64,000 bases of DNA from Bacteroidales bacterium (lineage in GTDB: Bacteria; Bacteroidota; Bacteroidia; Bacteroidales; Marinilabiliaceae), in contig SUWW01000005.1 in NCBI GenBank assembly GCA_015061285.1, forward strand, positions 17,072 to 81,071, in the 5' to 3' direction. Shown here in pieces: positions 12,573-64,000 of this stretch. The notes below the pieces were generated by a model. The model ran no database searches. It had not been told where the DNA came from and worked only from the letters and a program-made list of their open reading frames with translations. Positions within the stretch are counted from its first letter, which is position 1, and each line of letters starts with the position of its first letter. A program made the translations under genes and the position numbers.

Positions 12573-12730
12573 TGTGTTTTAGTTATTTATTTGTTTGTAA
12601 ATGTTTGGTTTACACTTCGTCGTCGTTTTATTGACGATTTCTTGTCGTGAATATTTTGATAAAAATAGTGAAAAAGTGTTACAAACGTTCAAATGTGAAT
12701 AATAATTACTCACATGTAATAGGTATAACA

Positions 12731-12738
12731 TATTTTTG
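12731..12738 (+). promoter_or_regulatory. Promoter -7 box of the cobalamin locus
   Basis: TATTTTTG matches the Bacteroidetes -7 consensus TAnnTTTG and lies just upstream of the riboswitch, so the RNA would start close to the first conserved stem. No clear -33 element is visible. Confidence 0.5.
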
Positions 12739-12747
12739 CCGCCGATT

Positions 12748-12908
12748 GGCTCGGTGGCCGCAAGGCTAACGATTAAATAGGAATCGTGTGAAAATCGCGA
12801 ACTGTCCCGCAGCTGTGTAAGCTCGCCAACGTCATGCGCACAATGCCATTGTCACAATACTGCGACGAGAAGGCGCTCATGATGAGCTAAGTCAGAAGAC
12901 TAACCAAT
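12748..12908 (+). promoter_or_regulatory. Cobalamin riboswitch (AdoCbl/B12 element)
   Basis: The leader carries the conserved class signatures in order: GGCTCGGTGGCCGCAAGGCT near 12748, AATAGGAATCGTGTGAAAAT (12775-12794), the CGAACTGTCCCGCAGCTGT core (12798-12816), a B12-box-like GCCATTG (12845-12851) and the closing AGTCAGAAGAC (12890-12900). It precedes btuB. In this class, adenosylcobalamin or another cobalamin binding usually shuts off expression of the downstream transporter genes. I see no clear terminator hairpin with a T-run after it, so control may act on translation initiation. Confidence 0.93.
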
Positions 12909-13027
12909 CATTTTCTGAATAATAAAACCAACGTGTCTCGAGGGTTAGACAACGCTGTATGTGGTGTCGAGTGCTATGCCGACATCATGTCGCTTGTTTT
13001 GCCTCCGAATTATTGAACGAACAACAG

Positions 13028-53777: not shown

Positions 53778-54551
53778 TTAGTTTTTCTTTATGCTGTCTA
53801 CGAATGCTTTTATCGACTCTTCAGAAACGCCATTTGTTTTGATATGGTTTACAAAAGCAGTGCCGATGATAGCGCCCGAAGCGTGTGCACAAGCATGACG
53901 GAAACCTTCGTTGTCTTTCACACCGAAGCCAATCATACGCTTGTTTTTTAGTCCAAGCGACGAGACGTGGTCGAAGTAGCGGCTTCGATAATCTTCGCTT
54001 GTTTTGATGTTGCCCGTTATACCAGCCGAAGCTACCATATAAATAAAACCATCGGCATTGGCATCGAGGAATTTCATGCGTTCGTCGGGTGTTTGAGGTG
54101 CGATAAGAGGTATGTTGCGTAGACCATATTTATCGAAAAGAGTCTTGTAGTTGTCGAGATACTCTTGCCATGGAAGGTCGGGCACGATGAGCGCATCTAC
54201 GCCGCAGTTGGCTGCATCGCGAAGGAAATTTTCAACACCATAGTGCATGATAGGATTTATATATCCCATCAGCGTGACGGGTATGGTTATGGACTTGCGC
54301 ATATCCTTCAATTGCGTCATAAGCACATGAAGTGTCATGCCGTTGTTGAGGGCATCGAGACTTGCGCGTTGAATTACAGGACCATCGGCCAAAGGGTCGG
54401 AAAAAGGCATACCAATCTCTACAAAGTCAACGCCAGCTTTTTGCAAGCCAGTGAGCACCGCCATGGTGTCGTTGAGATTTGGGTATCCTGCTGTAAAATA
54501 GATAGATAGCAATCCATCTTTTTTGCTGAATATATCGTCGATTCTATTCAT
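53778..54551 (-). CDS. trpA: Tryptophan synthase alpha chain
   Basis: Cleaves indole-3-glycerol phosphate to indole and glyceraldehyde-3-phosphate within the alpha2beta2 complex. The signature VDFVEIGMPFSDPLADGPVI near residue 39 carries the catalytic Glu and the DPLADG Asp. ALIVPDLPWQE near 128, FIYMVASAGITG near 168, and IGFGVKDNEGFRHACAHASG near 207 follow. The 257-residue length is normal. It is the last gene of the operon, six bases after trpB. Confidence 0.96.
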   Translation of the reverse strand: MNRIDDIFSKKDGLLSIYFTAGYPNLNDTMAVLTGLQKAGVDFVEIGMPFSDPLADGPVIQRASLDALNNGMTLHVLMTQLKDMRKSITIPVTLMGYINPIMHYGVENFLRDAANCGVDALIVPDLPWQEYLDNYKTLFDKYGLRNIPLIAPQTPDERMKFLDANADGFIYMVASAGITGNIKTSEDYRSRYFDHVSSLGLKNKRMIGFGVKDNEGFRHACAHASGAIIGTAFVNHIKTNGVSEESIKAFVDSIKKN

Positions 54552-54556
54552 CGGTT

Positions 54557-55744
54557 CTATTTATCAAAAAAACGTTTCATATAAGTAGCCATATCTTTAT
54601 CGCCTCTGCCCGAGATGGTCACCACCACATTGTCGTCCTTCTTGAATTTCAGCTTAGGTAGTGCGGCCAACGCATGCGACGATTCGAGAGCTGGAATAAT
54701 GCCCTCTTTCATAGTTAAGAGACGAGCAGCAGCGAGAGCTTCGTCATCGGTAGCAGAGAGAACGGTTTCGCGTCCACAATGAGCGAGGTATGCGTGCAAC
54801 GGACCTACACCGGGATAATCCAACCCAGCCGAGATAGAGTATGGCTCTACAATCTGCCCATCATCGGTTTGCATAAGCATAGTGCGGCTTCCATGAATGA
54901 TGCCTTCGGTGCCACGTGCTATGCTGGCTGCAGTCTCGCCGCTGTCGAGGCCAAGACCGCCCGCTTCTACAGCAATAAGTTTTACGCTCTCATCGTCGAG
55001 GAAGTTGTAGAACGAGCCTGCAGCATTGCTTCCACCGCCGATGCACGCTATCACATAGTCGGGAAGTTCATTGCCGGTGTGCTCCTTGAGTTGCTCGCGC
55101 ATCTCTTTGCTAATAATACTTTGCAGACGAGCAACGAGGTCGGGATAAGGGTGAGGACCAACCACCGAACCAATGACGTAGAAAGTGTCTTCGGGATTCG
55201 AGATCCAGTCGCGCAGGGCTTCGTTGGTGGCATCTTTCAGAGTGCAGTTGCCGCTTGTAGCAGGCACCACCTCGGCGCCGAGCATACGCATGCGAGCCAC
55301 GTTAGGCGCTTGGCGTTCAATGTCGAGCGCGCCCATATATACTTGGCATTTCATATCGAGCAATGCGCATGCTGTAGCGGTAGCCACACCATGTTGTCCT
55401 GCGCCAGTTTCGGCGATGATGCGCGTCTTGCCCATCATCTTAGCCATAATCACTTGGCCAATAGCATTGTTGATTTTATGAGCTCCCGTGTGAGCCAAAT
55501 CTTCGCGTTTCAAATAGATATTGGTGCTATATATATCAGATAGCTTTTCGGCGTATGTTAGTGGAGTAGGACGTCCAACATAGTCTTTCATCAACTGCGT
55601 AAATAGCTTCTGAAATTCATCAGATGCAAGAATTTTCAGGTAGTTCTGACGCAAATTCTCCACATTGGGGTAGAGCATTTCGGGAACCCAAGCGCCCCCA
55701 AAATGGCCATACATACCATTATCGCTTACAGAATATTTTCCCAT
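54557..55744 (-). CDS. trpB: Tryptophan synthase beta chain
   Basis: Condenses indole with serine to tryptophan using pyridoxal phosphate. The PLP lysine is in LAHTGAHKINNAIGQVIMAK near residue 87, and the phosphate-binding glycine loop in ACIGGGSNAAGSFYNFLDD near 230. GRPTPLTYAEKLSD and ETGAGQHGVATATACALL are as in the trpB1 group. At 395 residues it has the usual length. It lies between trpF and trpA, 27 bp after trpF. Confidence 0.97.
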   Translation of the reverse strand: MGKYSVSDNGMYGHFGGAWVPEMLYPNVENLRQNYLKILASDEFQKLFTQLMKDYVGRPTPLTYAEKLSDIYSTNIYLKREDLAHTGAHKINNAIGQVIMAKMMGKTRIIAETGAGQHGVATATACALLDMKCQVYMGALDIERQAPNVARMRMLGAEVVPATSGNCTLKDATNEALRDWISNPEDTFYVIGSVVGPHPYPDLVARLQSIISKEMREQLKEHTGNELPDYVIACIGGGSNAAGSFYNFLDDESVKLIAVEAGGLGLDSGETAASIARGTEGIIHGSRTMLMQTDDGQIVEPYSISAGLDYPGVGPLHAYLAHCGRETVLSATDDEALAAARLLTMKEGIIPALESSHALAALPKLKFKKDDNVVVTISGRGDKDMATYMKRFFDK

Positions 55745-55771
55745 CGGATAGTTATGAATTGTTATGTTTTT

Positions 55772-56410
55772 TTACTGTGACTTTTTGATTTTGGCAAGAG
55801 CTTTATGTAGCAATTCGTAGTCTTTTATGCCAGGTGCAAGTTCGAATCGGCTATTTAGGTCGATAGCATAGGCACCACTTTGTGCGGCTACGTTAATATT
55901 GTCTATACTTATGCCGCCAGAGAGAAACCAAGGCTTTCGGAGTGGTTGACGCAAAATGAGTTGCCAATCGAACTCTTTGCCAGAACCGCCAAAATTGGGA
56001 GTCTTAGTATCGAATAGATAGTAGTCTACATAGTCTTCGTATGACCAGATGTGGTCGAAGTCGTGTTCGTCTTCAATGCTGAAAGCCTTGATTACTTCAA
56101 AACCCGATTCTCGCAGTGTGTGGCATAGCTCAGGTTTCTCGTTGCCGTGCAGTTGTATGGTCTGAAGGCCATAAGTAGCTGCCGTTTGACGAATTTCGGT
56201 TTCTGTGCTATTTACAAACACACCAACTCTGTGAACCCTTGAAGGAATTATGCTCAGCATATCAGGTTTTACCTTGCCGACCACATATCGCGGCGATTTG
56301 GGGTAGAAGATAAAACCCACATAATCGGGTTCAAGGAAGAGAATGCGGCATAGGTTGTCGATGTCGGTTAAGCCGCAAATTTTGATTTTTACTTGGCTGC
56401 GTTTTTCCAT
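55772..56410 (-). CDS. trpF: Phosphoribosylanthranilate isomerase
   Basis: Isomerises phosphoribosylanthranilate to CdRP. The N-terminal KIKICGLTDIDNLCRI contains the catalytic Cys, and GFIFYPKSPRYV follows; the catalytic Asp is in the region YLFDTKTPNFGGSGKEFDWQ near residue 132, with FLSGGISIDNINVAAQSGAY near 162. The 212-residue size is normal. Its start lies 22 bp inside the trpC 3' end, a short overlap that keeps both genes intact. Confidence 0.95.
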   Translation of the reverse strand: MEKRSQVKIKICGLTDIDNLCRILFLEPDYVGFIFYPKSPRYVVGKVKPDMLSIIPSRVHRVGVFVNSTETEIRQTAATYGLQTIQLHGNEKPELCHTLRESGFEVIKAFSIEDEHDFDHIWSYEDYVDYYLFDTKTPNFGGSGKEFDWQLILRQPLRKPWFLSGGISIDNINVAAQSGAYAIDLNSRFELAPGIKDYELLHKALAKIKKSQ

Positions 56411-57192
56411 GCTAATGAATATTTATTGCAGAAGTCGATACACATTTCCCCGGGATTTTCACATTTCATGAACGTTTCGCCTATCAAGAATCCATCGAAT
56501 CCTTCGCTGCGTAGATGTATCATGTCGTCGATACTACGTATGCCGCTTTCTGAGATTCGAGGCATCTCTTTGGGCAAGAGATGGCTAACTCTGATAGAGC
56601 GCTCGAGATCGACTTCGAATGTACGCAAATCGCGATTATTTATGCCTGCTACAGTTACTCCTTCGGCTACATAATCTGTTTCGTCCTCATTATGAAGTTC
56701 TAAAAGCACTTCCATGCCAAGTTCTTGGGCAAGGCGGGCAAAACGTTTCACTTCGTCGCGAGATAGTATAGCCGCAATAAGCAGAATTGCAGAGGCTCCG
56801 TTGGCGCGTGCCTCCACAATCTGATATTCGTCGATTATGAAATCTTTTCTGAGTATAGGTATTTTAACCGATGCTACGGCTTCGCGAAGGTCTGCTATAG
56901 AGCCTCCAAAAAAGTCGATGTCTGTCAGACAAGATATGGCACTTACTCCAGCTTGCTCGTAGAGTGGTGCAACATCTTTGGGCGAAATAGCACCTTGGTG
57001 TATCAAGCCTTTAGATGGTGATTGACGTTTGAACTCGGCTATTATACCATTGCGCTCACGTATTCCGAGTGCAAAAGGCAATGTTTGAGGCGCATCGTCG
57101 AGTTGGCGTTCAAGCAAGGCAAGCGGTTGCTTCTTTTTGAGTTCGGCAACAACCTCTCGCTTTCGAGCTACTATTTTGTCGAGGTAGTTCAT
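56389..57192 (-). CDS. trpC: Indole-3-glycerol phosphate synthase
   Basis: Closes the ring of CdRP to indole-3-glycerol phosphate. The catalytic Glu-Phe-Lys region is GIIAEFKRQSPSKGLIH near residue 48. ILRKDFIIDEYQIVEARANG near 113, EVLLELHNEDETD near 160, and VAGINNRDLRTFEVDL near 180 follow, with ESGIRSIDDM close to the end. At 267 residues it is a stand-alone enzyme, not fused to trpF. It begins one base before the trpD stop region. Confidence 0.95.
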   Translation of the reverse strand: MNYLDKIVARKREVVAELKKKQPLALLERQLDDAPQTLPFALGIRERNGIIAEFKRQSPSKGLIHQGAISPKDVAPLYEQAGVSAISCLTDIDFFGGSIADLREAVASVKIPILRKDFIIDEYQIVEARANGASAILLIAAILSRDEVKRFARLAQELGMEVLLELHNEDETDYVAEGVTVAGINNRDLRTFEVDLERSIRVSHLLPKEMPRISESGIRSIDDMIHLRSEGFDGFLIGETFMKCENPGEMCIDFCNKYSLAWKNAAK

Positions 57193-57193
57193 C

Positions 57194-58201
57194 TTATGAG
57201 TTTAGTTCTATAAACTTTTTGAATGCTGCAAGAGCCTTTTTGCTTTCGAGAGATTCTCGCGCAATGGCAACGCATTCAAGAATATCCTTTTGAGGATCAA
57301 GCGTTTGAATGGCAAATGCCGAATTTGCCAAAACAACCTCTTTATGGTCGATTTTTGAAGATCCTTCGAGTACTGCGTCGAATAATTTTACTGCCTCTTC
57401 TTTCGTAGCACCGCCTTCGAGGTTTTTAGCGTCAGCAATGTTGAGTTTTAGGTCGCTTGGCTTAAATATTTTTTCGTATCTGTTGTTGGTGATTTTGAAA
57501 TCGCCTGTGAGTGATATTTCGTCGTAGCCATCGATGCTTGTTTCGATGCAATAATCTATGCCAAGTTTTTGGTATACAGCATTATAAAGACGCATCTGGT
57601 TGAGGTTTGCCACGCCCAAAAGTTGGCATTTCGGTAGCGATGGATTGACAATCGGGCCGAGCAAATTGAAGCAAGTTGGGAATTGCAATGCCTTACGTAT
57701 TGGCGCAACAAACTTCATGGCACGAGCAAAAAGTGGTGCATGTAAATATGCAATGTTTGCCTCGTCGAGCGATCGTTGTAGCTTGTCTCGGTCGTTGGTG
57801 AACTTCACGCCGTGTTCTTCGATCACATTTGATGCTCCACTGACCGAAGTGGCAGCATAATTACCATGCTTAACAACCTTATAACCAGCGCCTGCAACAA
57901 CAAAGCAAGCGCAAGTAGAGATGTTGAACGTGTTCTTTTGGTCGCCACCAGTGCCCACAATGTCGATATATTTATCGGCATCGAGTACGGCAGGAATGCC
58001 CGTTTCAAGAATGCCATCGCGGAATCCGAGAAGTTCGTCTATGGTGATACCTCGCATCTGCAATCCCGTCAAAAAGGCGGTTATCTGCTCGTTGGGTATC
58101 TCTTCTTTAGTAATACTAATAAGTATTTCTTTGGTCTCCTCGCGAGTAAACTCCAAATGACTCAGCATTCGGGCGAGAATGTCTTTCATAATTATAGCCA
58201 T
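57194..58201 (-). CDS. trpD: Anthranilate phosphoribosyltransferase
   Basis: Transfers phosphoribosyl from PRPP to anthranilate. The PRPP-binding motif is DIVGTGGDQKNTFNISTCAC near residue 84, and KHGNYAATSVSGASNVIEEH near 112. APIRKALQFPTCFNLLGPIV is near 165, and TGDFKITNN and LEGGATKEEAVKLF lie further on. The start may be the ATG at 58201 or the second Met four codons later. Length 335 residues. It is separate from trpG, unlike the fused form in some gamma-proteobacteria. Confidence 0.95.
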   Translation of the reverse strand: MAIIMKDILARMLSHLEFTREETKEILISITKEEIPNEQITAFLTGLQMRGITIDELLGFRDGILETGIPAVLDADKYIDIVGTGGDQKNTFNISTCACFVVAGAGYKVVKHGNYAATSVSGASNVIEEHGVKFTNDRDKLQRSLDEANIAYLHAPLFARAMKFVAPIRKALQFPTCFNLLGPIVNPSLPKCQLLGVANLNQMRLYNAVYQKLGIDYCIETSIDGYDEISLTGDFKITNNRYEKIFKPSDLKLNIADAKNLEGGATKEEAVKLFDAVLEGSSKIDHKEVVLANSAFAIQTLDPQKDILECVAIARESLESKKALAAFKKFIELNS

Positions 58202-58214
58202 AATGATAAGTATG

Positions 58215-58778
58215 TTAGTGGTTTATAAAATTACTTATGATGTTTTTCCCTTCGGGCGTAAGCACCGATTCGGGGTGAAATTGAATGCCTCGAATGTCGA
58301 ACGTCTTGTGGCGAATTGCCATGATATAACCCTCAGGACTTGTGGCTGTTACCTCTAAGCACGAAGGCAAATTTGCATTGTCGACAACCCACGAATGGTA
58401 ACGTCCAACAAGGATTTCATTGGGAAGATTGCGGAATATGTAGTCGTCGGCTACAATTTTGGCTGGTGTTTGAACTCCGTGGTAGACGTCCGAAAGGTTA
58501 GTGAGTTTTGCTCCGAAGTATTCACCAATTGCCTGATGACCAAGACATACACCTAAAATTGGTTTCTTATCCTTATAGGTTTCTATGACTTTGAGTAAGA
58601 GACCCGCTTCGGAAGGAATGCCTGGTCCTGGCGAGAGTACAATTTTGTCGAACTTCTCAAGTTCGCTCATCTCAAATTGGTCGTTTCTATACACAGCTAC
58701 TTCGGTGTTAAGTTCCTTCAGTAGGTGCGAAAGATTGTATGTAAATGAATCGTAATTATCTATTATTACAAGTTTCAT
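58215..58778 (-). CDS. trpG: Anthranilate synthase glutamine amidotransferase component
   Basis: Supplies ammonia from glutamine to TrpE. The class I glutamine amidotransferase triad is visible: Cys in PILGVCLGHQAIGEYFG near residue 79, His and Glu in GIQFHPESVLTPEGKNI near 168. IIDNYDSFTYNLSHLLKEL opens the protein and VLSPGPGIPSEAG is near 49. 187 residues is normal for the stand-alone domain. It lies 27 bp after trpE. Confidence 0.96.
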   Translation of the reverse strand: MKLVIIDNYDSFTYNLSHLLKELNTEVAVYRNDQFEMSELEKFDKIVLSPGPGIPSEAGLLLKVIETYKDKKPILGVCLGHQAIGEYFGAKLTNLSDVYHGVQTPAKIVADDYIFRNLPNEILVGRYHSWVVDNANLPSCLEVTATSPEGYIMAIRHKTFDIRGIQFHPESVLTPEGKNIISNFINH

Positions 58779-58805: not shown

Positions 58806-60233
58806 TTACATTTCTTCGGCCATAAATATGGCTTTGCGCAATGCTCCAAGTTTGTTGTTGACCTCTTGCAGCTCATAATCTTCATTACTTTTTGCTACAA
58901 TACCTCCTCCAGCTTGAAACCAAAGTTCATTGTTGCGGCTAACGAAAGTGCGTATGGTTATGGCTTGATTGAGAGAACCATCGAAGCCAATCATACCTAT
59001 GCAACCGCCGTATGCACCACGATTGTGCGGCTCTATTTCGGAAATAAGTTGCATTGCTCTGACCTTAGGAGCACCCGAAAGCGTACCCGCAGGGAAAGTG
59101 TCGATGAGCGTCTTTATAGGGTCGGCGCCTTCGTTGAGTTTGCCACTTACACGACTAACTAAATGAATCACATGACTGTAGTATTGCATCTCTTTGTAGA
59201 AATCAACTTTCACATCGTGGCAGTTGCGGCTGAGGTCGTTGCGGGCAAGATCAACAAGCATGACGTGTTCGGCATTCTCTTTGGGGTCGTTGCGTAAGTA
59301 TTGCGCATTCTTGGCATCTTGATCGGGGTCGCCCGTGCGTTTGGTTGTGCCAGCTATTGGATCTATGTATGCTTTGCGTTCTCTACCATCTATTCTACAA
59401 TGCGTTTCGGGCGATGAACCGAAGATGCGAAAACCGCCCATGTCGAAGTAGAACAGATAAGGCGAAGGGTTAATGCTACGCAGAGCGCGATAGAGTTTGA
59501 AATCGTCGCCTTCGTAATGTTGCACAAAGCGGCGTGAGAGTACAATCTGGAAAACATCGCCTCGTAAACAATGTGCTATGCCTTTACGAATATTGGCTTT
59601 ATGCTCTTCATCGGTCAGTGGACTTGTGGTTTCTCCTATGGGATGAAAGTCGTACGATGGAATGTTGTTGCGGTTAATCAATTTCTCTATGACGTCAATT
59701 TCGCTCGGCTCTCCTTCGCCTATTAGGTTTATGATATGCATCTGATTTTTGAAGTGGTCGAATGCCACTATCGATTTGAAGAGTACGTATAGCACATCGG
59801 GAGCATCATTGCGTTCTTGGGTTTCATCTTTCACTGCTATGTTTTCAAAATATCTAACAGCGTTAAATGAAGTGTAGCCAAACAATCCGCAGTGCTCTCC
59901 ATTTCCTTCGATAGCAAATGCATTCAAGAATTCGTTTATGGCATCGTCGGTGCCGTAGCTACGCGTAATGTCGCGTGTAATAGTTTTATTGTCTGGGAAT
60001 TCCAATGTTGCTTTGCCGTGTGATATAGCCACTTGAGCTATCGGGTGGATGCCTATGTATGAGCGAGCGTTGTCGCCTCCATGATAATCCGAGCTCTCCA
60101 TTAGCGCGCTGCGAGTGTATTGGTCGCGCAGTCGCATATATATGCTCACTGGCGTGTACAAGTCGCCAAGGATAGACTTAGCTTCGGTCTTGTATTTATA
60201 TTTTGTATTCATATCTATGTTGTTATTTATCAA
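58806..60233 (-). CDS. trpE: Anthranilate synthase component I
   Basis: Converts chorismate to anthranilate. The feedback-site region is ALMESSDYHGGDNARSYIGI near residue 39, a version of the LLES motif that binds tryptophan in other TrpE proteins. The chorismate-binding core includes VFQIVLSRRFVQ near 226, IFGSSPETHCRID near 270, DPIAGTTKRTGDPDQDAKNA, and LVDLARNDLSRNC, with TFPAGTLSGAPKVRAMQLI near 376 and GAYGGCIGMIGFDGSLNQAI. 475 residues. It is the first structural gene, 22 bp after the leader terminator. A second possible start is the ATG seven codons later. Confidence 0.96.
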   Translation of the reverse strand: MINNNIDMNTKYKYKTEAKSILGDLYTPVSIYMRLRDQYTRSALMESSDYHGGDNARSYIGIHPIAQVAISHGKATLEFPDNKTITRDITRSYGTDDAINEFLNAFAIEGNGEHCGLFGYTSFNAVRYFENIAVKDETQERNDAPDVLYVLFKSIVAFDHFKNQMHIINLIGEGEPSEIDVIEKLINRNNIPSYDFHPIGETTSPLTDEEHKANIRKGIAHCLRGDVFQIVLSRRFVQHYEGDDFKLYRALRSINPSPYLFYFDMGGFRIFGSSPETHCRIDGRERKAYIDPIAGTTKRTGDPDQDAKNAQYLRNDPKENAEHVMLVDLARNDLSRNCHDVKVDFYKEMQYYSHVIHLVSRVSGKLNEGADPIKTLIDTFPAGTLSGAPKVRAMQLISEIEPHNRGAYGGCIGMIGFDGSLNQAITIRTFVSRNNELWFQAGGGIVAKSNEDYELQEVNNKLGALRKAIFMAEEM

Positions 60234-60254
60234 TTATCGACTTTACGTATGATT

Positions 60255-60292
60255 CAAAAAAGAAAGCCCTACCAAGAAATCTCGGTAGGGCT
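60255..60292 (-). terminator. trp leader terminator (attenuator)
   Basis: On the minus strand AGCCCTACC (60284-60292) pairs perfectly with GGTAGGGCT (60265-60273), followed by TTCTTTTTT at 60256-60264. It lies between the leader peptide and trpE, 22 bp before the trpE start. Its 5' arm continues into CCGAGATT (60278-60285), complementary to an earlier leader segment. Confidence 0.93.
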
Positions 60293-60342
60293 CTGTATTT
60301 TACTGAACAATGGGAATGTCAATAAACCTCATCTCCGAGATT
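60278..60342 (-). promoter_or_regulatory. trp leader antiterminator pairing
   Basis: AATCTCGG (60335-60342), inside the end of the leader peptide coding region, is the exact complement of CCGAGATT (60278-60285), which shares CC-G bases with the 5' arm of the terminator. The 8-bp pairing would exclude terminator formation. A ribosome stalled at the Trp codons (60359-60367) would leave this segment free; one reaching the stop codon (60329-60331) would cover it. Confidence 0.75.
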
Positions 60343-60382
60343 GGAAATAAGACTTACGCCACCACCATATGTTATTGTACAT
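60329..60382 (-). CDS. trpL: trp operon leader peptide
   Basis: A 17-residue reading frame, MYNNIWWWRKSYFQSRR, runs from ATG 60382 to TGA 60331-60329. It contains three consecutive TGG codons (60367-60359). Three Trp in 17 residues is hardly expected by chance in a gap just upstream of trpE. The peptide is followed by an attenuator hairpin and preceded by a promoter, the order of the trpL leader of enteric bacteria. It would act as a sensor of charged tRNA-Trp, not as a product. The assignment rests on sequence arrangement alone. Confidence 0.88.
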   Translation of the reverse strand: MYNNIWWWRKSYFQSRR

Positions 60383-60411
60383 CTGATTCATTTTTCGTTT
60401 TTTCGATGCGA

Positions 60412-60443
60412 CAAATATCAGTTAATTTTTGCTAAAGCACAAA
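60412..60443 (-). promoter_or_regulatory. Promoter of the trp operon
   Basis: On the minus strand a TTTG (60440-60443) is followed about 20 bp later by GATATTTG (60412-60419), close to the Bacteroidetes -33 TTTG / -7 TAnnTTTG pair. Transcription would begin roughly 20-25 bp before the leader-peptide ATG at 60382. Confidence 0.6.
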
Positions 60444-60549
60444 TGGATTTTATTATTTACGTATAACGCGTAACGAAAACGTAGTGTTGCATGTAATAAA
60501 AGTCATTTTGCTGCTTTCAAGTCAATTATTGCGTTACGAGTGATAATTA

Positions 60550-61032
60550 TTATTCTTTCATAATCAGAACCACAGCGTATGCCGACGCACCTGTGCCTTC
60601 GCCTTCAAACGAGAGTTTTTCCGTAGTTGTAGCCTTCACCGAAATGCGATCATCATCGATGCCGATAGCTTGGGCTATTTCATGTTGCATTTGCGGGATG
60701 AGGTCCTTGAGTTTTGGCTTTTGCATAGCTATTGTGCTATCAACATTACTTACGCGATAGCCCTTTTCTGCAATGATTTCAACGCAGCGACGCAAAAGTT
60801 TGCGGCTATCTATGCCTTCAAAGTCCTTACTGTTATCTGGGAAATGGAAACCAATGTCGCGCATAGCAGCAGCGCCAAGTATCGCATCGCAGATGGCGTG
60901 CAATAGGACATCGCCGTCAGAATGTGCTACCCAACCCTTTTCGTATGGTATTTTCACTCCACCGATAGTAAGTGGTAGCCCAGCTTCGAGACGATGGACG
61001 TCATATCCGTAACCAACTCTAATATCGAGCAT
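60550..61032 (-). CDS. ispF: 2-C-methyl-D-erythritol 2,4-cyclodiphosphate synthase
   Basis: Cyclises CDP-ME-2-phosphate in the MEP isoprenoid pathway, as a homotrimer with a bound divalent metal. VGYGYDVHRL at the start contains the metal ligands Asp and His (DVH), and HSDGDVLLHAICDAILGAAA near residue 35 the rest of the signature. DIGFHFPDNSKDFEGIDSRK follows, with NVDSTIAMQKPKL near 98 and ISVKATTTEKLSFEGEGTGA near 132. The 160-residue length is standard. It is 18 bp after porV on the same strand. Confidence 0.96.
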   Translation of the reverse strand: MLDIRVGYGYDVHRLEAGLPLTIGGVKIPYEKGWVAHSDGDVLLHAICDAILGAAAMRDIGFHFPDNSKDFEGIDSRKLLRRCVEIIAEKGYRVSNVDSTIAMQKPKLKDLIPQMQHEIAQAIGIDDDRISVKATTTEKLSFEGEGTGASAYAVVLIMKE

Positions 61033-62336: not shown

Positions 62337-64000
62337 CTACTTGAATAAAATTTTTCTTTTGAAACTTCCACTGCGGCCAGTTTCGTCTGTTATGTTTATG
62401 TCGATAATATAAATGCCTTTGCCTAATGTAGCAGTGTTAGGCATTTCGGATATGAGATTGATTAAGTCAGATTGACCTTGCGTTGTAGTGGTAGTAATTG
62501 TTTTTTGCGTCATTAGTCGGCCACTAATAGAGTAAATGGCCATTTTTAGTGTCAAACGTGAACTTGAGCCATTATGAGTGAAAAACAAGTTTAAGTCGCT
62601 TGAGCCACTAATGTATGGACATGGGTAAATCTCAGTTGTACCGAATTGGATATTGCTATTCTTGTCGACAAAGAACTCGATAGTTTTTTCAGATGAGTTG
62701 TTGGCATTGTCCCAAGCTTTGAGCGTGAGTGTATAGTTCTTCATGTTTTCCAGTTCGGGCAAAGTATAATCAAGAGATCCCGAAGTATAGCTATTGGGTG
62801 AGTAGATGAAGTAGCTATTTAAGTTATATGGATTGTTTCGATCATCATTCAATACTATAGTAATGTCATGACCAATGCCCATACCACTAATGTTTATTCC
62901 AGAGTTATCACTCAACGATGCATGAAGTGTAGGCGTTGCACCTGTTGTACTACCATCACCGAAACCAAGATATTCAACCCAAGCAGTTATCTCAGGACCT
63001 ATTGTGTCGTTGGCGGCTTCTGTATCAATACCACCTAAAAGCAGCGTATTTGTATATCCTCGTGCTTCAACATTATTGTTGGAAACGGCGTAATAGCTAA
63101 TTCTTCCACATCCTTCATCAGAGTAGCTGTCTTTGGGCAGTACTATTGTAGTATTGAACAATCCATTTTCTACTGTGGATAATCCATTGTATAAGACACT
63201 GTTGTAGTTCTCAAAAGTGTAAACTTCGCTAATTGCGCCTTTGGTAGATATAGAATCTTTTTTGTTGTATATGGTGATATTTATTTGCCCGTTGAAATCG
63301 TCCAATATGTTTCCTTGTTGATCTCTAATAGAGCCGCTAATTTTATTGACGGATAGAATCTTCAAAGGTTCGTCACAAACGTCGAATGCAATGTCGTTTA
63401 TACTATCAGTGCTGATGGTATAATTTTCGTCATAAGCTAATGTAATAGCAGGATCGCCTATTAATACATACTTCAAAGAGTTTATATTGCCGATAGTTTT
63501 TTGTTTTGCATATTTTACGGCATCGCCTACCGTATATCGTTTCCCATTACTATCGGTGTCGAGAACTCGGCCTAAAAATGCACGAGAAATTTTGTAATTA
63601 TAGTTACTATAGGTAATTCTGTTGGCTGCGAGAGAGCCTATTGCACCGCAATTAGAAGGAAGAACCATATACTTAGACAAACTTGTAATGCCGCGATCAA
63701 ATGATCCTGTATGGCAAGCAGCACTTATAACAAAAGGGTATTTGCCTTTATTGTTCCATTTTACATAATCACTTAGATTTAATAATGCCCATGTTGCCCA
63801 TCCTGTATCTGAACCATGTCCTGTATAGTCTACAAACAAAGCACCGTTATCAAAAATAGATTGTAAATCTTCAATAGCTTGATAATAGCGAAGTCCACTT
63901 GTAGTATATGTTGCTGTATATGCCTCCTGATATATTTTAGTTTCATTTAGGATAGGGTATTTGTTGGCAACCCACTTGGCTTTTTGCTCTGAAAATATCA
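62337..64000 (-). CDS. porU: Type IX secretion sortase PorU, 3' part (partial)
   Basis: A C25 (gingipain-like) cysteine peptidase that removes the signal of T9SS substrates and attaches them to the cell surface. The frame is open to the window's right edge, so the N-terminus is missing; the first TTG at 63837-63839 is internal, not a start. The visible part carries the catalytic His in FVDYTGHGSDTGW and the catalytic Cys in FVISAACHTGSFDRG. Later parts are beta-sandwich modules and a C-terminal sorting-like domain (IQFGTTEIYPCPYISGSSDL, LKMAIYSISGRLM, GKGIYIIDINI). About 554 residues are visible of a usual length above 1,000. Confidence 0.9.
   Translation of the reverse strand, partial: IFSEQKAKWVANKYPILNETKIYQEAYTATYTTSGLRYYQAIEDLQSIFDNGALFVDYTGHGSDTGWATWALLNLSDYVKWNNKGKYPFVISAACHTGSFDRGITSLSKYMVLPSNCGAIGSLAANRITYSNYNYKISRAFLGRVLDTDSNGKRYTVGDAVKYAKQKTIGNINSLKYVLIGDPAITLAYDENYTISTDSINDIAFDVCDEPLKILSVNKISGSIRDQQGNILDDFNGQINITIYNKKDSISTKGAISEVYTFENYNSVLYNGLSTVENGLFNTTIVLPKDSYSDEGCGRISYYAVSNNNVEARGYTNTLLLGGIDTEAANDTIGPEITAWVEYLGFGDGSTTGATPTLHASLSDNSGINISGMGIGHDITIVLNDDRNNPYNLNSYFIYSPNSYTSGSLDYTLPELENMKNYTLTLKAWDNANNSSEKTIEFFVDKNSNIQFGTTEIYPCPYISGSSDLNLFFTHNGSSSRLTLKMAIYSISGRLMTQKTITTTTTQGQSDLINLISEMPNTATLGKGIYIIDINITDETGRSGSFKRKILFK

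Follow-up and report, generated by a model that had tools for sequence, protein, structure and literature searches.

How transcription of the tryptophan biosynthetic genes is controlled is the question raised by a locus in the window, by which we mean the whole stretch of 64,000 nucleotides analysed here (Bacteroidales bacterium, contig SUWW01000005.1). On its minus strand, the genes follow the order trpE-trpG-trpD-trpC-trpF-trpB-trpA (60212-53778). The first gene of the operon, trpE (58806..60212), has TIGR00564 trpE_most as its best model, with 405 bits, under the curated cut-off of 517.7. The remaining genes, trpG to trpA (53778..58778), were also assigned by profile models, those for trpG_papA, trpD, trpC, trpB, and trpA each scoring above a curated cut-off, and the best one for trpF reaching 183.7 bits against a cut-off of 215. 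Between trpE and the upstream gene ispF (60550-61032, same strand) there is a leader, in which an earlier note on this DNA had recognized the logic of enteric trp attenuation. Comparison with relatives supports this architecture, consisting of a Trp-codon leader peptide, a pause hairpin, an antiterminator, and a terminator, and it is highly probable that the leader controls the trp operon by ribosome-mediated attenuation of transcription, from which we infer a response to tryptophan.

All the pieces named in that note are found in the sequence. The leader peptide frame, MNQMYNNIWWWRKSYFQSRR followed by a stop codon (60329..60391, minus strand, as all the leader features described here), counts 20 codons from its first ATG and 17 from the second one, an alternative start at 60382 that corresponds to the frame originally proposed. 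Its three consecutive Trp codons, TGG TGG TGG (60367-60359), would constitute the sensor, and Trp-run frames in relatives agree with this assignment. Just past these codons, folding predicts a 15-bp pause hairpin, absent from the earlier note, with region 1 as its 5' arm (60357-60343), region 2, which spans the stop codon, as its 3' arm (60336-60322), and AATCTC as its loop. The terminator that had been claimed is present and strong: a stem of 14 pairs, counting G-U (60294-60263), with the loop ATTT, followed by CTTTTTT, with the T-run CTTTTTTG at 60255..60262. It is placed between the leader frame and the first gene, and is the sole terminator-like site in 60200-60560 on both strands, with a mean of 0.1 in shuffled sequences. 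The whole leader (60405-60255) folds at -48.2 kcal/mol versus -29.6 (sd 3.6) for 200 dinucleotide shuffles, none of which was as low (0/200; z -5.2).

The antiterminator had been proposed as an 8-bp complementarity, and AATCTCGG (60342-60335) and CCGAGATT (60285-60278) are indeed exact reverse complements; by plain arithmetic, about 0.02 such 8-bp Watson-Crick matches would be expected between the spacer and the terminator. When the ribosome edge is placed 10 nt beyond the third Trp codon, the minimum-energy fold of the nascent RNA predicts an antiterminator that includes this helix, with its 5' side at 60326..60342 (60342-60333 plus 60328-60326) and its 3' side at 60278..60291 (60291-60287 and 60285-60278). 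The 3' side is common to the terminator 5' arm and loop, and these common bases, together with the coevolution described below, indicate that antiterminator and terminator are mutually exclusive.

According to the mechanism that we propose, when charged tRNA-Trp is plentiful, the ribosome would reach the stop codon and cover region 2, so that the terminator would form and transcription would stop near 60255. With uncharged tRNA-Trp, the ribosome would wait at the Trp codons, covering region 1 and leaving region 2 free to capture the terminator 5' arm and loop as they emerge, ahead of the synthesis of the 3' arm. Once this antiterminator is formed, the RNA polymerase would continue into trpEGDCFBA.

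Upstream of the frame, the promoter-like pair that had been pointed out consists of TTTG (60443-60440), a candidate -33 element of the Bacteroidetes, and the candidate -7 element GATATTTG (60412..60419), 20 nt downstream. The latter has one mismatch to TAnnTTTG, which has been named as the -7 consensus (PMC9723704). The pair fits the Bacteroidetes form, whereas a scan for sigma-70 promoters gave no match on the leader strand. When the best TAnnTTTG site up to 70 nt upstream was searched in 64 of 66 leader rows (the other 2 being too near the locus end), it was exact in 34 versus 1.8 expected from shuffles, carried one mismatch in 28 versus 24.2 expected, and more mismatches in 2. The leader of the window belongs to those with one mismatch, a level often reached by chance for a single sequence.

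A search for the same Trp-rich leader in relatives, suggested as a check, gave a clear answer. Among the 80 best TrpE relatives from named genomes, 63 have a Trp-run leader and a hairpin before trpE or trpB, as counted by an automated scan followed by inspection by eye, in which L030 and L051 were excluded as spurious and L067 was kept. In L001-L011 the leader stands before trpE, whereas the other 52 have trpB as the first trp gene and the leader in front of it. Seven of the remaining relatives were not assessable, and 10 had no leader in the upstream DNA examined, that is, within about 220-300 nt upstream of trpB. A strict terminator scan was passed by 45 of the 63 leader-bearing relatives, and a relaxed scan plus folds revealed a hairpin in all the other 18, with L057 lacking a T-run and L044 and L079 having weak ones. 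Within the family of the window, 71 genomes gave 66 full TrpE matches, 50 of which were examined (30 loci and 20 stretches; L081 is the window itself, and L083, from the genome of L001, was represented by L001). A leader and a terminator were present upstream of trpE in 49 of these 50, the other one, L106, being cut by a contig edge. The peptides range from MNTNIWWWRPSL to MGICFCNNNWWWQTSYLTSGR, and what stays constant is a run of 2-4 Trp codons, at times interrupted (WHW, WRW). One of the relatives, L038, is a Clostridiales-labelled MAG with a leader and a Prevotella-type trpB-trpE arrangement, and is probably mislabelled or contaminated.

Covariation was scored in three alignments: A3, with window-like sequences (15, 14 of them distinct, mostly from the same genus); A2, of Prevotella type (26); and A4, from other genera of the same family (16). 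The covariation that had been anticipated for the terminator is evident in all of them, with 98.7%, 99.0%, and 98.1% of cells paired in A3, A2, and A4, respectively, and with both sides altered in 31, 30, and 15 cells; in no group did any of the 500 shuffles reach the covariation score. The pause hairpin, which would sequester region 2, is clearest in A2, where 97.0% of cells are paired and the score exceeds all shuffles; it is weaker in A3, with 80.3% paired and a score reached by 37/500 shuffles. For the antiterminator, 84.0% of cells are paired in A2, again with a score exceeding all shuffles, and 83.8% in A4, where 23/500 shuffles reach the score, a marginal result; in A3, no antiterminator covariation was detected, either for the register of the earlier note or for a stop-codon register. 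Column 34 of A2 pairs in both helices, with column 18 in the pause hairpin (GC 17, AU 8) and with column 103 in the antiterminator (CG 17, UA 6, UG 2), and therefore the changes run together across two exclusive structures.

The expectation of covariation did not hold for the exact 8-bp helix, which is not conserved beyond the sister species. In A3, 61.7% of its cells are paired versus 60.0% after shuffling, and all eight pairs are kept by at most two sequences, the window and the sister species L001. Several relatives instead have, as judged by eye, a CCGGAG-like motif at their stop codon that pairs with CUCCGG in the loop and 3' arm of the terminator. Our reading of these sequences is that the antiterminator register itself shifts, the window and L001 probably using AATCTCGG:CCGAGATT and the relatives other registers.

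The coevolution of leader and terminator was also examined without an alignment, by pairing each leader segment in silico with its own terminator and with all the others. This duplex test, like the switch modelling below, started from 109 loci. Of these, 38 yielded no row, owing to the strict criteria applied to ATG and terminator, to absence, or to a contig edge, and the 71 rows were reduced to 66 by removing 5 duplicate genomes and then to 51 by removing 15 rows more than 85% identical. The mean energy of the own leader/terminator duplexes is -18.99 kcal/mol versus -15.03 (sd 0.43) for permuted partners, with 0 of 20000 permutations as low, and the effect is gone when the segments are reversed (z -0.73). 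Against mononucleotide shuffles of their own segment, 44 of the 51 homologs perform better (z below -1.5), with the window at z -2.47. The own partner ranks first among the 51 in only 2 and 6 cases (median ranks of 7 and 5), which is expected among relatives and still limits this test. The equivalent test for regions 1 and 2 gives z -8.0, but the reversed control is also low (z -4.3), so it is not clean and counts as weak evidence.

Whether such a leader can work as a switch was addressed by folding. When the full-length RNA is folded at equilibrium, the terminator prevails whichever of the three ribosome states is assumed, with a median P of about 0.96; antitermination must therefore be kinetic, as the decision in E. 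coli trp attenuation is likewise held to be. Since equilibrium folding is thus uninformative on the switch, nascent-RNA folding was used instead, with the RNA extending to the terminator loop plus four bases and the ribosome edge assumed to lie 10 nt past the A-site codon. For the 51 homologs, the median number of expected leader-terminator pairs is 3.8 without ribosome, 2.0 with the ribosome at the stop codon, and 7.1 with shuffled spacers, and rises to 13.5, 14.2, and 14.3 when the ribosome occupies the three successive Trp codons. In 41 of the 51, stalling gives at least 3 pairs more than either the free or the stop state, and 10 miss this mark. The claim that a stalled ribosome frees region 2 and a ribosome at the stop codon covers it thus stands in these model folds for most homologs, whereas in the window's leader it applies to the third Trp codon and fails for the first and second: the expected pairs are 8.7 free, 3.0, 5.8, and 12.2 at the three successive codons, 4.1 at the stop, and 8.1 shuffled, a weaker switch than most, in which the pause hairpin forms again if the ribosome stalls at the first Trp codon. 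Antitermination in this species is consequently predicted only with the ribosome held at the third Trp codon, and sensing may fall to that codon alone.

Several other explanations have to be weighed against attenuation. The hairpin could simply terminate ispF, which lies upstream on the same strand, and the WWW frame could be a chance occurrence, given that TGGTGGTGG is common genome-wide (101 copies versus 57 for the backward pattern). We regard this as very improbable, since leader and hairpin recur before trpE, trpB, trpD, or trpC, the leader-terminator pairing coevolves, and none of the 30 other TGGTGGTGG copies examined, out of the 101, has the same setting, with WWW in a short frame that begins at an ATG and a terminator after it. 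Hardly more credit is due to control by a protein sensing tryptophan or tRNA, or by a T-box, with the peptide being incidental. Even though protein- and tRNA-sensing control of trp genes is known in Bacillus, no T-box was found at the gathering score in the window, nor at E up to 10 in 60200-60520, the genome itself gave no Trp_repressor match, and what recurs is a short frame containing a Trp run.

Two further possibilities give the leader a different or an additional role. It could encode a stalling peptide that senses free tryptophan, like TnaC, a leader peptide stalled by free tryptophan; here, the peptide sequence around the Trp run is highly variable from group to group, and the downstream genes serve to make tryptophan rather than degrade it, which leaves this as the most remote of the explanations considered. 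Somewhat less far-fetched, although still improbable, is that the terminated leader RNA, predicted to be roughly 150 nt, or the peptide acts in trans besides its action in cis, for which there is a precedent in peTrpL of Sinorhizobium (PMC7298713); the N-terminus of the peptide, however, varies among relatives. Ribosome-mediated attenuation in cis is thus the reading that we retain, an ordinary mechanism that is well supported.

The relation of this leader to catalogued RNAs was examined with Rfam, which at cut-off gives no match in the window's leader. The whole Bacteroid-trp model (RF01692) aligns to 60284..60411 with 21.7 bits, well under the gathering score of 49 (E 4.3). With relaxed limits, ten families were listed for the leader, RF01692 being ninth by E-value with eight better, among them His_leader (21.3 bits, E 0.21). 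By score, the leader is therefore outside the family; by layout, it falls in register with the model, with the Trp run in a hairpin, the terminator 5' arm at the model end, and trp genes downstream. No RF01692 match at E 0.1 or less was found in its own genome, and none of 14 leader-bearing loci tested reaches the gathering threshold. In the 71 genomes of the family, 30 have a match at E 0.1 or less and one is above the cut-off. The 32 places listed score between 49.7 and 32.9 bits; 28 of them are upstream of trpE, 3 before trpB, trpD, or trpC, and 1 at a contig end without a leader seen. Across 295 genomes of the class, 21 have a match at E 0.01 and 10 are above the cut-off, and each of the 20 RF01692 loci retrieved carries a Trp-run leader and a terminator adjoining trpE (12), trpB (4), or trpD (4). 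The most likely placement of the leader is as a divergent relative of the Bacteroid-trp type; its own score is at chance level, and the link rests on these intermediates. Both occur in the same phylum, before trp genes, with a Trp run in a hairpin and a model end in the terminator 5' arm, but the leader studied here is too divergent for the model cut-off. Since the model as aligned stops at that arm, the rest of the terminator is left out.

Compared with the two Trp codons of E. coli trpL, the leader of the window has three. Trp codons, pause hairpin, antiterminator, and terminator appear in both in the same order and with the same logic (PMC6414381); they differ in that the antiterminator of the window uses the terminator 5' arm and loop, and that of many relatives the loop and 3' arm. 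The proteobacterial Trp leader (RF00513) gave no Rfam match at the gathering score in the window, nor up to E 10 in 60200-60520.

This leader is not the first of its kind in the phylum, since Weinberg et al. listed Bacteroid-trp, a Trp leader RNA of the Bacteroidetes, as early as 2010 as a probable RNA and probable cis-regulator and not a riboswitch (PMC2864571), and it was noted in 2019 upstream of trp in Flavobacterium psychrophilum, where the parallel with E. coli was drawn (PMC6414381). Clues of leader peptides upstream of amino-acid operons of F. psychrophilum followed in 2021 (PMC9723704), and the Bacteroides thetaiotaomicron map includes 5' UTR frames reminiscent of leader peptides (PMC7366714). 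Nothing closer to a worked-out mechanism in Bacteroidetes was found in the literature searched, outside which most subscription journals lie. What is modestly new here is the range missed by Rfam, the separate leaders on split trp genes, and the occurrence of leaders for His and Phe/Tyr alongside in this genome. A catalogued RNA motif of the Bacteroidetes, little described in the literature searched, becomes an explicit and testable switch, in a family where the Rfam model recognizes few of the leaders, and leader-bearing cultured relatives such as Prevotella ruminicola and P. communis would allow direct tests of transcription-translation coupling in the phylum.

The leader also seems to have travelled with its genes. 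TrpE of the window is 72-93% identical to the 80 best relatives (about 72-77% for the Prevotella-type ones) and mostly 50-55% identical to that of other genera of its own family, and two TrpE types are present in its genus. A FastTree phylogeny of 49 sequences places L007 and L010, from Paludibacteraceae, inside the clade of the window's genus (support of the enclosing nodes 0.84 to 0.98). Since their leaders are also similar to that of the genus, the operon was likely transferred together with its leader. In addition, three relatives with split trp genes have a separate Trp leader and terminator on the trpB (L189), trpD (L190), and trpC (L191) units.

A wider reading, whose chances we judge to be about even, is that the trp genes of Bacteroidia are widely under the control of a single old attenuator family, which Rfam often misses and which has followed the genes when the operon was split or transferred, the antiterminator being repeatedly rewired (loop and 5' arm, or loop and 3' arm) while the switch was kept. 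Ribosome-mediated attenuation would then be a main mode of amino-acid control in these bacteria, considering the His and Phe/Tyr leaders and the absence of a TrpR match, and the window's species may sense through its third Trp codon alone.

Beyond the trp genes, a scan for leaders before leuA-type and homoserine dehydrogenase genes found none at L185, L186, and L188, and was ambiguous at L184. On the reverse strand of L182, in the genome of the window itself, MILNVHHHHHHHSLQQ with its stop codon and then a GC-rich terminator lie just upstream of hisG, forming a His leader peptide. On the reverse strand of L183, MLTARFYFGFYFYFFGYCQKSGGCCK, also ending in a stop codon, and a terminator precede the prephenate dehydratase gene (pheA, PDT), as a mixed Phe/Tyr leader, and the gene after this pheA is, by eye, an aminotransferase-like frame. 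Elsewhere in the window, a cobalamin riboswitch is found at 12730-12922 on the plus strand (85.6 bits), and a long frame at 62337-63998 on the minus strand, which leaves the window at its end, resembles by eye a C25-type peptidase that is secreted and carries a sorting tail.
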